Below are positions 45,299 to 49,818 of a stretch of 64,000 nt of DNA, piece by piece. Where the stretch lies: assembly GCA_029267335.1 (NCBI GenBank), contig JAJUJC010000005.1:62001-126000 (forward strand), in the 5' to 3' direction. This stretch comes from Intestinibacillus massiliensis (GTDB lineage: Bacteria; Bacillota; Clostridia; Oscillospirales; Butyricicoccaceae). A program made the position numbers and the translations under genes. How positions within the stretch are numbered: position 1 is the stretch's first letter; the number at the start of each line of letters is the position of its first letter. The notes under the pieces were generated by a model. The model made no database searches, had not been told where the DNA came from, and saw only the letters and a list, made by a program, of their open reading frames with translations.

Positions 45299-46021
45299 TT
45301 AGAGCACCTTTGCAAGAAAATCCTTGAGGCGCGGATGCTGCGGGTTCGCGAAGAACGCCTTGGGCTCGTTCTGCTCGACAATGTTACCGCCGTCCATGAA
45401 CAGCACGCGCGTGCCGACTTCGCGAGCGAAGCCCATTTCGTGCGTGACGACCACCATGGTCATGCCGTCCTCGGCAAGCTCCTTCATGATCTCGAGCACT
45501 TCACCGACCATTTCGGGGTCAAGCGCCGAGGTGGGCTCGTCAAACAGCATGACGTCGGGGTTCATCGCAAGCGCGCGCGCGATCGCGATGCGCTGCTGCT
45601 GTCCGCCCGAGAGCTGCTTGGGGAACGCGTTCGCCTTATCGGGCAGACCGACGCGCTCGAGCAGCTGCATCGCTTTCTTTTCCGCCTCGTCGGGCTTCAT
45701 CACGCCGAGCTGCACGGGCGCGAGCATGATGTTGTCCTTGACCGACAGGTGCGGGAACAGGTTGAACTGCTGGAACACCATGCCCATCTTGCGGCGCACG
45801 AGGTTGATGTCGGTCTCCTTTGCGGTGATATTCTGTCCCTCGAAGATGATGCTGCCGCCAGTCGGCTCTTCGAGCAGATTGAGGCAGCGCAGGAAGGTCG
45901 ACTTGCCCGAGCCGGACGGCCCGATGATGACGACCTTTTCGCCCTTGCCGATGTGCTCGTTGATGCCCCTCAGCACCTCGTGGTGTCCGAAGGCCTTCTG
46001 TAAATTTTTAACGTCGATCAC
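45299..46021 (-). CDS. polar amino acid ABC transporter ATP-binding protein
   Basis: The protein has 240 residues, GlnQ type: [47 protein letters not shown]. It powers the adjacent permease. The GTG start at 46021 overlaps the permease end by 14 bases, with AGGAGG ten bases upstream. It is last in the importer operon. Confidence 0.95.
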
Positions 46022-46712
46022 TTGCGGACAGCCTCCTTTCGATGAGCCGCTGCACCTGCGTCATGCCAACGACCAGTACCAGATAGAATACCGCCGTGAT
46101 CATGAGCGGCGCGATGTTATACACACGGTTCTGGATGTTTGTCGCCATTTTCAGCACATCCTGCACCGCGATATAGCCCGCGACCGAGGTTTCCTTGAGC
46201 AGCGTAATGAACTCGTTGAACAGCGCAGGCAGGATATTGCGCACCGCCTGCGGCAGAATGATGAGACGCATCGTCTTGCCTGCCGACAGACCCAGCGAGC
46301 GGCCGGCTTCGGTCTGACCGCGGTCGATCGACTGGATGCCCGCGCGGATGACCTCCGCGACGTATGCGCCGGAGTTGATGCCAAAGCCCACGATGCCCGC
46401 GAGCGTGCCGTCGGTCATCGAGGTGAAAATACCTGTGTAGATAATGAGCAGCTGCACCATGACAGGCGTGCCGCGGATGACCGTCAGATAAATGTCGCAG
46501 ATTTTTTCAAGCACCCACAGCAGTGGGTTGCGCTTATGTCCCTGCTTGCTCTGCGTCGCCGAGACTTTGATAATGGCGACGATAACGCCAATCAAAATGC
46601 CGAGCAGCACCGCACCCGCGGCAAGCTCCAGGGTTTTGCCCAGTCCCTTGAAATAGAGGATCCAGCGGCCGTTCTCCAGGAATGCGCCGGAAAACTTTTC
46701 CCAAAGACCCAT
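46008..46712 (-). CDS. polar amino acid ABC transporter permease
   Basis: The protein has 234 residues. It has about five membrane segments and the His/Glu/Gln permease signature ([23 protein letters not shown] type) near 100-130, including the EAA loop [12 protein letters not shown]. It forms a homodimeric channel with the ATPase. I chose ATG 46712, ten bases after GGGGAG, over the TTG just before it. Confidence 0.95.
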
Positions 46713-46750
46713 CAAATCTCATCTCCCCTTTATGTAGTATGAACCAAAAC

Positions 46751-46772
46751 AGCAGGAGCGCTCAGCTCCTGC
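46751..46772 (-). terminator. attenuating hairpin between binding protein and permease genes
   Basis: AGCAGGAGC pairs with GCTCCTGCT. On the minus strand it is followed by TTTTGG, a weak T-run, suggesting partial termination so that the binding protein is made in excess. Confidence 0.65.
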
Positions 46773-46794
46773 TGCCTTGCCGTCGTGTCGATCC

Positions 46795-47655
46795 TTACTT
46801 GATGCCCATGTGCTGGGTAATCAGCTCGTCAACCTTACCGTCCTTGTACTCCGCGAGCACGCCGTTGATGAAGTCGCGCAGGTCATCCTGACCCTTCTGG
46901 ACCGCGAACGCGTACTTCTCGTCCGTCAGCTTCTTGTCGAGCAGCGTCAGCTTGCCGTTCTGGGAAGCGACGATCGCTTCGGCAGGTTTCTGGTCGATGA
47001 TGATCGCATCCGCCTTGCCCTGTGCAAGCATCATGCCCGCTTCCACGCCGGACTTGTAACGCAGAACGTTCGCGTCCTTAATGGTCGAGCCGGTGTTCTC
47101 GGTGTCGCCCGAAGCGTACCAGTCGCCGGTCGTGCCTTCCTGCACGGCGATGTTCTTGCCGGACAGCGCCGCATCCTCCGCGGTCAGGGTCGAGCCTGCG
47201 GGCACGACGACCATCTGGGACGAGGTGACGTATTCATCGGTGAAATCGACTTCCTTCTTGCGCTCCTCGGTCACGGTCATGCCCGCCGCAGCAAAGTCGC
47301 CCTTGCCGCTCTTGAGCGCGGAAACGATGCCGTTAAAGTCCATATCGACGACCTTGAGCTTGACGCCCAGCTTGTCAGCGACAGCCTGCGCCAGATCGGG
47401 GTCGACGCCCTTGACCGTGCCGTCGTCACCGAGATACTCAAACGGCGGGAACTGCGCGTTCGTCAGCATGATGATCTCGCCCTTCTGCTTGATCGCGTCG
47501 AGGGTCGGGGTCGCGCCTGCGGCAGCGGTATCGGTCGCTGCGGCGGTCTTGTCGTCGGTTTTCTGGGTGTCATCGGTCTTTGCAGCGCCGCAGCCGGTCA
47601 GTGCCGCAGACAAGACCATTGCGCCTGCGAGCAGCAGGGCGAGTCTCTTCTTCAT
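46795..47655 (-). CDS. amino acid ABC transporter substrate-binding lipoprotein
   Basis: The protein has 286 residues. The signal peptide ends in a lipobox (SAALTGC, Cys at about 22), followed by an Asp/Ala/Thr linker and a family 3 solute-binding domain (PPFEYLGDDGTVKGVDPDL, then VDFTDEYVTSSQMVVV). It captures polar amino acids at the membrane surface; cystine or glutamine are both possible. GGAGG precedes ATG 47655. Confidence 0.94.
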   Translation of the reverse strand: MKKRLALLLAGAMVLSAALTGCGAAKTDDTQKTDDKTAAATDTAAAGATPTLDAIKQKGEIIMLTNAQFPPFEYLGDDGTVKGVDPDLAQAVADKLGVKLKVVDMDFNGIVSALKSGKGDFAAAGMTVTEERKKEVDFTDEYVTSSQMVVVPAGSTLTAEDAALSGKNIAVQEGTTGDWYASGDTENTGSTIKDANVLRYKSGVEAGMMLAQGKADAIIIDQKPAEAIVASQNGKLTLLDKKLTDEKYAFAVQKGQDDLRDFINGVLAEYKDGKVDELITQHMGIK

Positions 47656-48101: not shown

Positions 48102-48130
48102 TTGACAGAGGAAAGTACACATGCTATAAT
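48102..48130 (+). promoter_or_regulatory. consensus sigma-A promoter of the leader peptide-symporter unit
   Basis: TTGACA, 17 bases, TATAAT: both hexamers match the consensus exactly. Confidence 0.88.
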
Positions 48131-48175
48131 CGCATTAAATCAGATATGTTTAATATGATTTTAGGAGGTTCCATT

Positions 48176-48322
48176 ATGAACAAGCTGCTGCACGGTTTTT
48201 CTTGTTGTTGCGGTACGGACACGGCAATGCCGATGCCCGCGTTTTGTTGTACCCGTTTTTCACCGGCTGCTTTTTGCTCTTGTTCGCACAGGAATTGTAG
48301 GTGTGTCTGCATCCCGCAATAG
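48176..48322 (+). CDS. Cys-rich leader peptide
   Basis: The peptide has 48 residues, ten of them Cys, in clusters: CCC at 10-12, CC at 24-25, CSC at 34-36, and CRCVC at 41-45. Both TGT and TGC codons are used. AGGAGG is optimally placed before the ATG, and a perfect-consensus promoter lies 46 bases upstream. An intrinsic terminator follows 36 bases after the stop, and a symporter of the cystine/dicarboxylate class comes next. This arrangement fits a leader peptide whose translation senses charged tRNA-Cys. A small metal-binding or secreted peptide is an alternative, but no signal sequence is seen. Confidence 0.65.
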   Translation: MNKLLHGFSCCCGTDTAMPMPAFCCTRFSPAAFCSCSHRNCRCVCIPQ

Positions 48323-48358
48323 GGATTTTGGCACATGATGCACAATGCGTCCTTTCGT

Positions 48359-48391
48359 AAGCGGAGAGCCGGCAGGCTTTCCGCTTTTTTT
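48359..48391 (+). terminator. attenuator terminator between Cys leader and symporter
   Basis: AAGCGGAGAGCC pairs with GGCTTTCCGCTT (one G-U pair) around GGCA, followed by T7. It lies on the path from the promoter to the symporter, so reading through must be regulated or inefficient. Confidence 0.85.
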
Positions 48392-48459
48392 GTACCTTTT
48401 CTTCGGCGCATGCGCGGCACGCCTTGCGATCCGGAATCACACCAAAGGAGAAATCAATC

Positions 48460-49818
48460 ATGAACATCAATTATCTCGACTGGCTCGCCGTGCTCGGCGC
48501 CGCCGCATTTATGTGGGTGCTGTACTACCTCGACCGCAAGAAAAACATGGACTTCGGTCTGCGCACCATCATTGCGATGGGCTTCGGCGTCATCGTGGGT
48601 CTGGTCTTTAAGGGACACGACCAGTATGTATCCGCGGTCGGCACGATTTACGCACATGCGATTGCCGCGGTCGTCGTCCCGCTGCTCGCATTCAGCATCG
48701 TATCCAGCCTAACCGGCATGGGTGATACGCACAAACTCAAAAAGGTGGGTCTCAAGACCGCGGGCTTCCTGACGCTCAACACCCTGCTCGCAAGCTCCAT
48801 CACGCTGGTCGCCTCCTTCTACACGCGCATCGGCGCGAACCTGGCGTCCCAGCCCATTGCCGAGTATAAAAAGCTCGAAGCGCCCTCTTTCCTCGATACG
48901 ATTATCAATTTGTTTCCGCAAAATCTGTCCGCGCACTGGGCGGAAAACCAGATCCTTCCGCTGCTGCTGTTCTTTGTGCTCATCGCGATCGCATACAATC
49001 AGCTTTCCGCCGAGCATGCCGAAAAACTGCTGCCGTTCAAGCATTTTGTAGACTCCGGCAATCTGGTCATGGGTCAGGTCATCAATATCATCATCTTCTT
49101 CACGCCCTACGCGGTACTCTCGCTCATCGCGCACGCAGTCAGCAAAAACGCGCTCAGCGACCTGCTCCCCCTGTTCAGCGTGCTTGTCCTCGCGTATATC
49201 TTATGCGCGGTGCAGATTTTCATCGTCGAAGGTCTGCTGCTTCGTCTGATCGGTAAATTAAACCCCATCCCATTCTTCAAAGGCATGTGGCCGGCGGGCG
49301 CAGTCGCCTTCACCTCCCAGAGCAGCATCGGCACCATCCCTGTCACGGTACATCACCTCAAGAAGATCGGCGTGCAGGAGGACATCGCGACCCTCGGCGC
49401 GACGCTTGGCGCAAACATCGGCATGCCCGGTTGCGCGGGCATCTGGCCTGTCCTGTCCGCAGTCTTTGCCATCAATCTGCTTGGCATCGACTACTCGCCC
49501 ATGCAATACGTCTTTCTCGTCGTGCTGACCGTTCTGGTCTCCATCGGCACGGTCGGCGTACCGGGCACCGCGACCATCACCGCAACCACGGTGTTCCTTG
49601 CCGCGGGTCTGCCGGTCGAGATCATCGTGCTGCTCACCCCCATCTCGAGCATCGTCGACATGGCGCGCACCGCCACCAACGTCATCGGCGCGGCGACCGC
49701 GTCCACCCTTGTCGCAAAGAGCGAGGGGCTGCTCGATCTCGAGCGCTATCACGCAGCGGGTGCTGCAAAGGGGGACGAACCGACTTCCAAGCCTATCTCC
49801 GAACCTGCGCTTTGGTAA
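48460..49818 (+). CDS. dicarboxylate/amino acid:cation symporter (DAACS family)
   Basis: The protein has 452 residues and about eight membrane segments plus two re-entrant loops: FTSQSSIGTIPVTV (serine-rich hairpin 1 type) near 285 and GVPGTATITATTVFLAAG near 365, then the NMDGT-like substrate region replaced by DMARTATNVIGAA. This resembles L-cystine symporter TcyP-type members as well as glutamate carriers. The upstream Cys-rich leader favours cystine, by inference. AAAGGAG precedes the ATG. Confidence 0.88.
   Translation: MNINYLDWLAVLGAAAFMWVLYYLDRKKNMDFGLRTIIAMGFGVIVGLVFKGHDQYVSAVGTIYAHAIAAVVVPLLAFSIVSSLTGMGDTHKLKKVGLKTAGFLTLNTLLASSITLVASFYTRIGANLASQPIAEYKKLEAPSFLDTIINLFPQNLSAHWAENQILPLLLFFVLIAIAYNQLSAEHAEKLLPFKHFVDSGNLVMGQVINIIIFFTPYAVLSLIAHAVSKNALSDLLPLFSVLVLAYILCAVQIFIVEGLLLRLIGKLNPIPFFKGMWPAGAVAFTSQSSIGTIPVTVHHLKKIGVQEDIATLGATLGANIGMPGCAGIWPVLSAVFAINLLGIDYSPMQYVFLVVLTVLVSIGTVGVPGTATITATTVFLAAGLPVEIIVLLTPISSIVDMARTATNVIGAATASTLVAKSEGLLDLERYHAAGAAKGDEPTSKPISEPALW

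Follow-up and report, generated by a model that had tools for sequence, protein, structure and literature searches.

In Firmicutes, the sensing of amino acids is usually credited to repressors, for example CymR, and to riboswitches and T-boxes. For cyst(e)ine symporter genes, a Cys T-box has been described before CysP1/CysP2 of Clostridium perfringens; there, expression of symporters under the T-box rises 7 to 15.5-fold when cysteine is limiting, and a Northern blot showed premature termination for one of the genes (PMC2940859). Leader peptides are also known in this phylum; in bacilli, for instance, hisS and hisZ have leader peptides for histidine (PMC2965389). Cys-rich leader peptides have been described for the cysteine operons of Mycobacterium, P. 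acnes and B. longum (PMC1262725), and the Cys leader of M. smegmatis is reported to work by translation attenuation (Canestrari 2020, as cited in PMC13236596). In Rhodobacterales, the uORFC-8-2 motif, a Cys uORF, is found upstream of cysS (PMC8632094). To the best of our knowledge, which is based on excerpts of the open-access literature with subscription papers mostly outside the search and is thus no proof of absence, a Cys leader peptide has not been reported before in Clostridia; the excerpts of PMC2494555 and PMC6429828 contain nothing further on Cys leaders.

The DNA analyzed here is a 64-kb stretch from Intestinibacillus massiliensis (hereafter the window), in which a Cys-rich frame and a terminator precede a symporter gene. 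A cysteine-responsive attenuator is by far the best reading of this arrangement and is probably how it acts in the cell. We propose, with a probability of about 0.8, that the region 48.10-48.46 kb acts as a ribosome-mediated transcription attenuator, which would sense charged tRNA-Cys and control the gene for the cyst(e)ine symporter behind it. When cysteine is ample, the ribosome would reach the leader stop codon, the terminator at 48359-48391 would form and transcription would end. When Cys-tRNA is short, the ribosome would stall at the Cys codons, chiefly C24-C25, leaving the segment just ahead (48263-48277) free to pair with 48361-48376; this pairing would block the terminator and permit transcription of the symporter gene. 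The parts of the region, their geometry and the recurrence of Cys sensors at homologous loci are results of the computation; that the leader is translated, that ribosomes stall on it, that the switch works in vivo and what the symporter carries are inferred.

The Cys leaders of Actinobacteria resemble the window in their short frames, their runs of Cys codons and their position before sulfur genes, but they precede biosynthesis operons and no terminator hairpin was found in them, whereas in the window the terminator is strong, the gene behind it is that of a symporter and the host belongs to another phylum. The uORFC-8-2 motif, as described, also combines a short frame that contains tandem Cys codons with an intrinsic terminator behind it, and the logic proposed for it is the same; it differs in belonging to Alphaproteobacteria and in preceding the cysteinyl-tRNA synthetase gene. 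Compared on the same descriptive basis, the Cys T-box of CysP1/CysP2 and the window would both put a cyst(e)ine symporter gene under the control of tRNA-Cys and premature termination, but the T-box RNA binds the tRNA directly, whereas the window would use a leader peptide. The hisS/hisZ leaders are alike in that leader peptide attenuation takes the place of T-boxes within Firmicutes and unlike in that they concern histidine and genes of the tRNA-synthetase type.

Parts of the leader region

All parts are on the plus strand. The sigma-70 type promoter (TTGACA-17-TATAAT, 48102-48130) matches the consensus at 12 of 12 positions and has a TG ahead of its -10 element. The leader Shine-Dalgarno sequence AGGAGG (48163-48168), read from the sequence, is 7 nt 5' of the ATG at 48176, where a frame of 48 codons with ten Cys begins (48176-48322; ORF translation, recomputed). 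Its Cys codons are C10-C12 (48203-48211), a possible further stall site, the tandem C24-C25 (TGTTGT, 48245-48250), the proposed main stall site, C34 and C36 (48275-48283), and C41, C43 and C45 (48296-48310). The intrinsic terminator (48359-48391) consists of 12 pairs within 48359-48386 and a T run to 48391, has an energy of -21.9 kcal/mol and shares its 5' arm with the putative antiterminator. The gene behind it (48460-49818) encodes an SDF/DAACS symporter (Pfam SDF, 1.1e-95) and has a Shine-Dalgarno sequence of its own, AAAGGAG (48444-48450), likewise read from the sequence. Promoter, AGGAGG site, 48-codon frame with ten Cys, terminator and symporter with its AAAGGAG are thus all present, as the original prediction had described. 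The same prediction had pointed to a CCGGCT near 48261 as a possible antiterminator seed: its complement AGCCGG is indeed found in the arm and loop of the terminator (48367-48372), while the CCGGCT itself lies at 48263-48268.

With ten Cys, the leader has the highest count among the 170 Shine-Dalgarno-led frames of 20-80 codons on both strands of the window, and by Cys fraction it is second, after a 28-codon frame with seven Cys. When 48102-48460 was shuffled 2000 times with its dinucleotides preserved, no plus-strand frame with at least ten Cys arose. Given its ten Cys, the strong promoter and Shine-Dalgarno sequence in front of it and the terminator directly behind it, the frame could be read as a real small product, i.e., a metal-binding or modified peptide, with a terminator that ends its own mRNA and an accidental adjacency to the symporter gene. 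We regard this as very improbable: the peptide has no Pfam or NCBIfam match at E 0.001, and no peptide-modifying gene was noticed when the first 40 residues of the window's ORFs were inspected by eye. The homologous loci described below also argue against it.

Rfam models at gathering score match only two tRNAs in the whole 64-kb window, with no T-box (RF00230) upstream of the symporter gene. The genome itself has eleven T-box matches, six of them over the cut-off and none Cys-specific by eye. A divergent amino-acid ABC transporter (binding protein, permease and ATPase; 45299-47655, minus strand) adjoins the symporter gene; the top model of its permease is a cystine permease, under the cut-off, and its binding protein and ATPase have other top models.

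Cys leaders and Cys T-boxes of homologous symporter genes

The symporter is patchy among genomes. At E 1e-60, a homologue was found only in its own genome (G000) among 87 genomes of its family; the best match in the one other genome of the genus that was examined has 31% identity and is not a close homologue; and at E 1e-80, homologues are found in 8 of the 391 genomes of a class-wide sample, its own genome included. Consequently, any comparison of leaders must rest on more distant homologues. When the leader region was used as a DNA query against 60 related genomes, the only matches were the window itself and one stretch of 25 bases over the Shine-Dalgarno sequence and start. In the symporter tree, the window protein has a long terminal branch and falls into a supported 14-member group together with L004, L007 and L008, whose genes have tandem-Cys leaders with terminators. 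The homologues nearest to it by tree path (L003, L005 and L014-L016) are without tandem-Cys leaders, and since the genus also offers no close homologue, the support for the window's leader comes from diverged or convergent leaders and not from an alignment of its peptide. Regulation of these nearest homologues looks different. In L005, L006, L015 and L016, a common Shine-Dalgarno-led frame with SVRCTR is seen, which has two Cys in L005 and one in the others, and the frame of L014 differs from it; the end of a LysR-like gene was noted by eye upstream of the symporter gene in some of the four.

Computation finds Cys sensors repeatedly before homologous symporter genes. The leaders were counted in 83 loci, i.e., 73 of 80 homologous loci, nine loci from the class-wide sample (L117-L125) and the window; the other seven have hardly any upstream DNA (L038, L053, L065 and L079), a match that begins inside the gene (L058 and L071) or 256 nt upstream (L023). 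To count as a leader, a frame had to follow a Shine-Dalgarno sequence, contain tandem Cys codons, be no longer than 70 codons and lie at most 400 nt upstream of the symporter gene on its coding strand. Such leaders are found in 29 of the 83 loci (window included), or 28 distinct leaders given that those of L049 and L121 are identical, compared to 0 of 83 on the reverse strand and to a mean of 0.9 and a maximum of 3 in 60 rounds of dinucleotide shuffling. The enrichment z for Cys is 31, followed by those for Asn (6.1), Leu (5.9) and Lys (3.9), all of which are inflated by related loci among the 83. A stricter count, which demands three Cys in seven codons, gives 18 of 75 loci on the forward and 0 of 75 on the reverse strand. 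A scan of the window's own genome for TGYTGYTGY was abandoned, as its 528 matches, compared to 261 in the reversed control, were too many for use.

The leaders vary among clades in sequence and length and have the tandem Cys codons in common. For instance, CCSCCCCC-like runs are found in the leaders of Lachnoclostridium, Anaerocolumna and Herbinix, CCCC runs in those of Thomasclavelia and Sedimentibacter, MCCRM or MCCVM in those of Butyrivibrio and CC at several loci of the Oscillospiraceae type. That tandem Cys is kept while the remainder of the peptide changes from clade to clade speaks against a peptide that serves as a product, and so do the Cys T-boxes that occupy the equivalent position in Clostridium-type loci. 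By eye, shorter leaders outside this count were also seen, e.g., MGERMC ahead of a Faecalibacterium gene, and the L010 leader, with RCYYY, resembles the RCCCC leaders of L018 and L019 with three Cys codons changed to Tyr codons, which reads as decay or a change of specificity.

Rfam models were run on 60 of the 80 homologous loci. A T-box scoring above the gathering score lies directly upstream of the symporter gene at eight Clostridium-type loci, and a ninth, at L057, scores 90.6 compared to the threshold of 93. In the model alignments, the specifier is the Cys codon UGC in all nine, at the position that we take to be the specifier from T-box anatomy. At gathering score, no T-box was matched at L064 and L066, which are in the same part of the tree, and neither a riboswitch nor a T-box was matched upstream of the symporter gene in 40 of the scanned loci. 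Of the 83 loci, 45 have neither a tandem-Cys leader nor one of the nine T-boxes, for which 60 of the 80 homologous loci were scanned. The expectation that clusters of Cys codons would accompany the symporter in relatives is borne out by these leaders, with their empty reverse strand and low shuffle counts, and by the Cys T-boxes of nine further homologues. Thus, the homologous symporters are tied to tRNA-Cys by two unrelated devices, a leader peptide and a T-box, which appear to be alternatives to each other at genes of one kind.

By profile, such symporters can be assigned to the broad SDF family but no further; the sensors allow a substrate to be proposed for them. The window symporter resembles E. 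coli TcyP (YdjN), another member of that family, in TM7, where TcyP has the form GxxGCAGx[WY]P: the sequence is GMPGCAGIWP in the window, GQNGCAGLYP in TcyP and NLDG-STLYQ in GltP. All readable homologues, the Clostridium group with T-boxes included, have the TM7 that is one residue longer and contains Cys, with minor variants such as ACGG and GCAA (the motif table is without L117-L120, L124 and L125 for reasons of strand and L070, which is too short). In BLAST, the window protein has 31% identity and 147 bits with TcyP and hardly less, 27% and 141 bits, with GltP, and in the tree, which has long branches, TcyP is far off on a long branch. Because the two scores are so close and the branches so long, cyst(e)ine specificity rests on the TM7 signature and the Cys sensors. 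Together they strengthen the cystine specificity that the original prediction had assumed, and the window symporter is probably a cystine/cysteine carrier. The TM8 arginine was considered as a mark of specificity and proved useless, as TcyP and GltP both keep it.

Predicted antiterminator geometry and leaders without a terminator

Eleven leaders from seven clades have a terminator, ten of them found by script and that of L004 by eye. For each leader, complementarity to the terminator 5' arm, which was set by hand, was scanned with a 14-nt window over 116-162 offsets from the tandem Cys pair; in the 64-kb window, C24-C25 was chosen from two possible Cys sites. In all 11 leaders, the best complement of the scan starts 3-14 nt after a tandem Cys pair; 0 of 5000 random rotations of the profiles reach the observed mean. 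If a ribosome were stalled at the Cys pair, its front edge would lie approximately here, as we presume from ribosome geometry. With the window left out, the best offset of the other six clades is +9 (0 of 1000), and it is +7 when L004 is left out as well (0 of 1000). The window's own best offset among 162 is +10, so that the antiterminator seed suggested by the original prediction sits where six other clades predict it; by our estimate, chance agreement in the window alone is about 0.04, with the two Cys sites allowed for.

The putative antiterminator segment was also folded. When the 3' arm of the terminator is absent, 48263-48277 pairs with 48361-48376 around three hairpins in the fold of 48260-48376, and the antiterminator is also formed in that of 48263-48376. 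One of the predicted hairpins (48301-48336) contains the leader stop codon (48320-48322), so that a ribosome finishing the leader would probably melt it. When folding begins at 48226 (48226-48376), the terminator arm pairs with a different upstream stretch, and over the whole leader the energy of the window's antiterminator is not above that of shuffles (124 of 200 as good). The complete terminator wins in every full-length fold printed, for which reason the switch must be kinetic. Elsewhere, antiterminator energy stands out in L008, L024, L027, L029, L031 and L037 (0-4 of 200 shuffles as good) and is marginal in L007, L012 and L013 (26, 20 and 30 of 200). Taken together, the diverged or convergent leaders, the T-boxes and the antiterminator geometry support, at the level of sequence comparison, the original reading of the region as a cysteine-sensing attenuator. 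The Cys content of the frame, the TM7 signature, the related MCCRM leaders of sulfur amino-acid genes and the response of the C. perfringens symporters to cysteine limitation also speak for it.

No terminator was found in 17 of the 28 distinct tandem-Cys leaders (L004 counted as having one). This could mean that the leader responds to cysteine chiefly via translation of the symporter or stability of its mRNA and that the terminator sets a basal level only. Sixteen of the 17 were scored for pairing with the symporter Shine-Dalgarno region, L019 being a near copy of L018, and in five of them the segment just behind the Cys codons pairs with this region better than most shuffles do: pairing as good was reached by 0 of 500 shuffles for L017, 1 of 500 for L044, 7 of 500 for L039 and, weakly, 37 of 500 each for L033 and L043. 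In the other 11, at least 49 of 500 shuffles pair equally well, and translational attenuation was therefore rejected as a rule for all leaders without a terminator; it likely operates in some of them. L017 is a clean candidate for such control by cysteine. Its leader reads MLEKSERRINLMRCC, and the end of this leader pairs with the symporter Shine-Dalgarno region in a stem of 11 pairs. For the window, which has a strong terminator and an antiterminator segment at the predicted offset, we consider control chiefly at the level of translation or mRNA stability to be unlikely and retain transcription attenuation as the preferred mechanism.

MCCRM leaders of sulfur amino-acid genes

The pattern ATGTGYTGYCGNATG was found at 49 places in 39 of the 391 genomes of the class, compared to 8 in the reversed control (summed from the listing). 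Inspection of all 49 places identified 13 as Shine-Dalgarno-led short frames before a fitting gene, whereas the other 36 look like chance. Eleven of the 13 frames precede genes of the sulfur amino-acid type and two (L163 and L164) an amino-acid ABC permease gene. A terminator and, behind the Cys pair, a segment containing CGGGC or GGGC accompany 12 of the 13; L186 is without both. MCCRM leaders, or their MCMRM/MMCRM forms, with antiterminator segment and terminator were noted at L163, L164, L168/L196, L171, L172, L174, L175, L177, L180, L181, L182, L184, L204-L207 and L211-L213, mostly before sulfur amino-acid genes.

For an alignment of 18 leaders (A1; L004, L012, L013, L037 and L186 are not part of it), RNAalifold returns both alternatives, antiterminator and terminator. 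In the antiterminator, 89.4% of the cells pair, compared to 23-46% when the strands are slid, and 5 cells are changed on both sides; further pair types are not above those of shuffles (461 of 500); for the covariation score, the excess over shuffles is weak (29 of 500). In the terminator helix, for which the alignment mixes two registers, 82.5% pair, a value that is not clearly above shuffles (67 of 500). A covariance model (R1) matches 19 places in 12 of the 391 genomes, of which twelve are training members and seven are new, and all seven new places precede genes of the sulfur amino-acid type. These genes were named by profile at L205, L206, L207 and L212 and by likeness to those at L204, L211 and L213. 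Among the genes of the MCCRM loci, the O-acetylhomoserine/O-acetylserine sulfhydrylase of L206 and the sulfate-binding protein of L186 score above the curated cut-offs, whereas the MetQ, MetN, cystathionine lyase-type, glutamate-cysteine ligase and permease matches score under them.

With the MCCRM leader RNA, Clostridia would gain a new regulatory family; none of the eight loci scanned gave an Rfam match at E 0.1. On balance, we favor the view that peptide-based sensing of tRNA-Cys is a general layer of control on sulfur amino-acid genes in many Clostridia. This layer would comprise an MCCRM regulon of MetQ-/MetN-like transporters, O-acetylhomoserine sulfhydrylase, cystathionine lyase-like enzymes, amino-acid ABC permeases and cyst(e)ine symporters, as well as versions with Met codons, would have no Rfam match where this was tested and would be evolutionarily interchangeable with Cys T-boxes, the window being a far-diverged or independently evolved relative. 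Membership of the window in the MCCRM family itself was rejected: with default filters, R1 is silent at 48.2-48.4 kb, and with the filters off it gives 0.5 bits at 48333-48391.

The conserved MCCRM core in leaders of other Clostridia could mean a role for the nascent chain, such that a leader would sense a cue other than tRNA-Cys charge, e.g., redox state or metals by nascent-chain arrest. For the window we hold this to be the least probable of the explanations considered, as the window is without MCCRM, the poly-Cys leaders of other clades have only their Cys codons in common and homologous genes carry T-boxes for tRNA-Cys. Moreover, the SRA codons behind MCCRM are within the antiterminator helix, so that this part of the conservation is accounted for by RNA pairing. 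Sensing of charged tRNA-Cys remains our preferred reading for the leader of the window.

Some leaders of this type, at L205, L206, L207 and L213, possibly sense methionine: they combine a single Cys with additional Met codons (MMCRM, MCMRM and MYMCMFRM) and are located before MetQ-, O-acetylhomoserine sulfhydrylase- and MetN-like genes.
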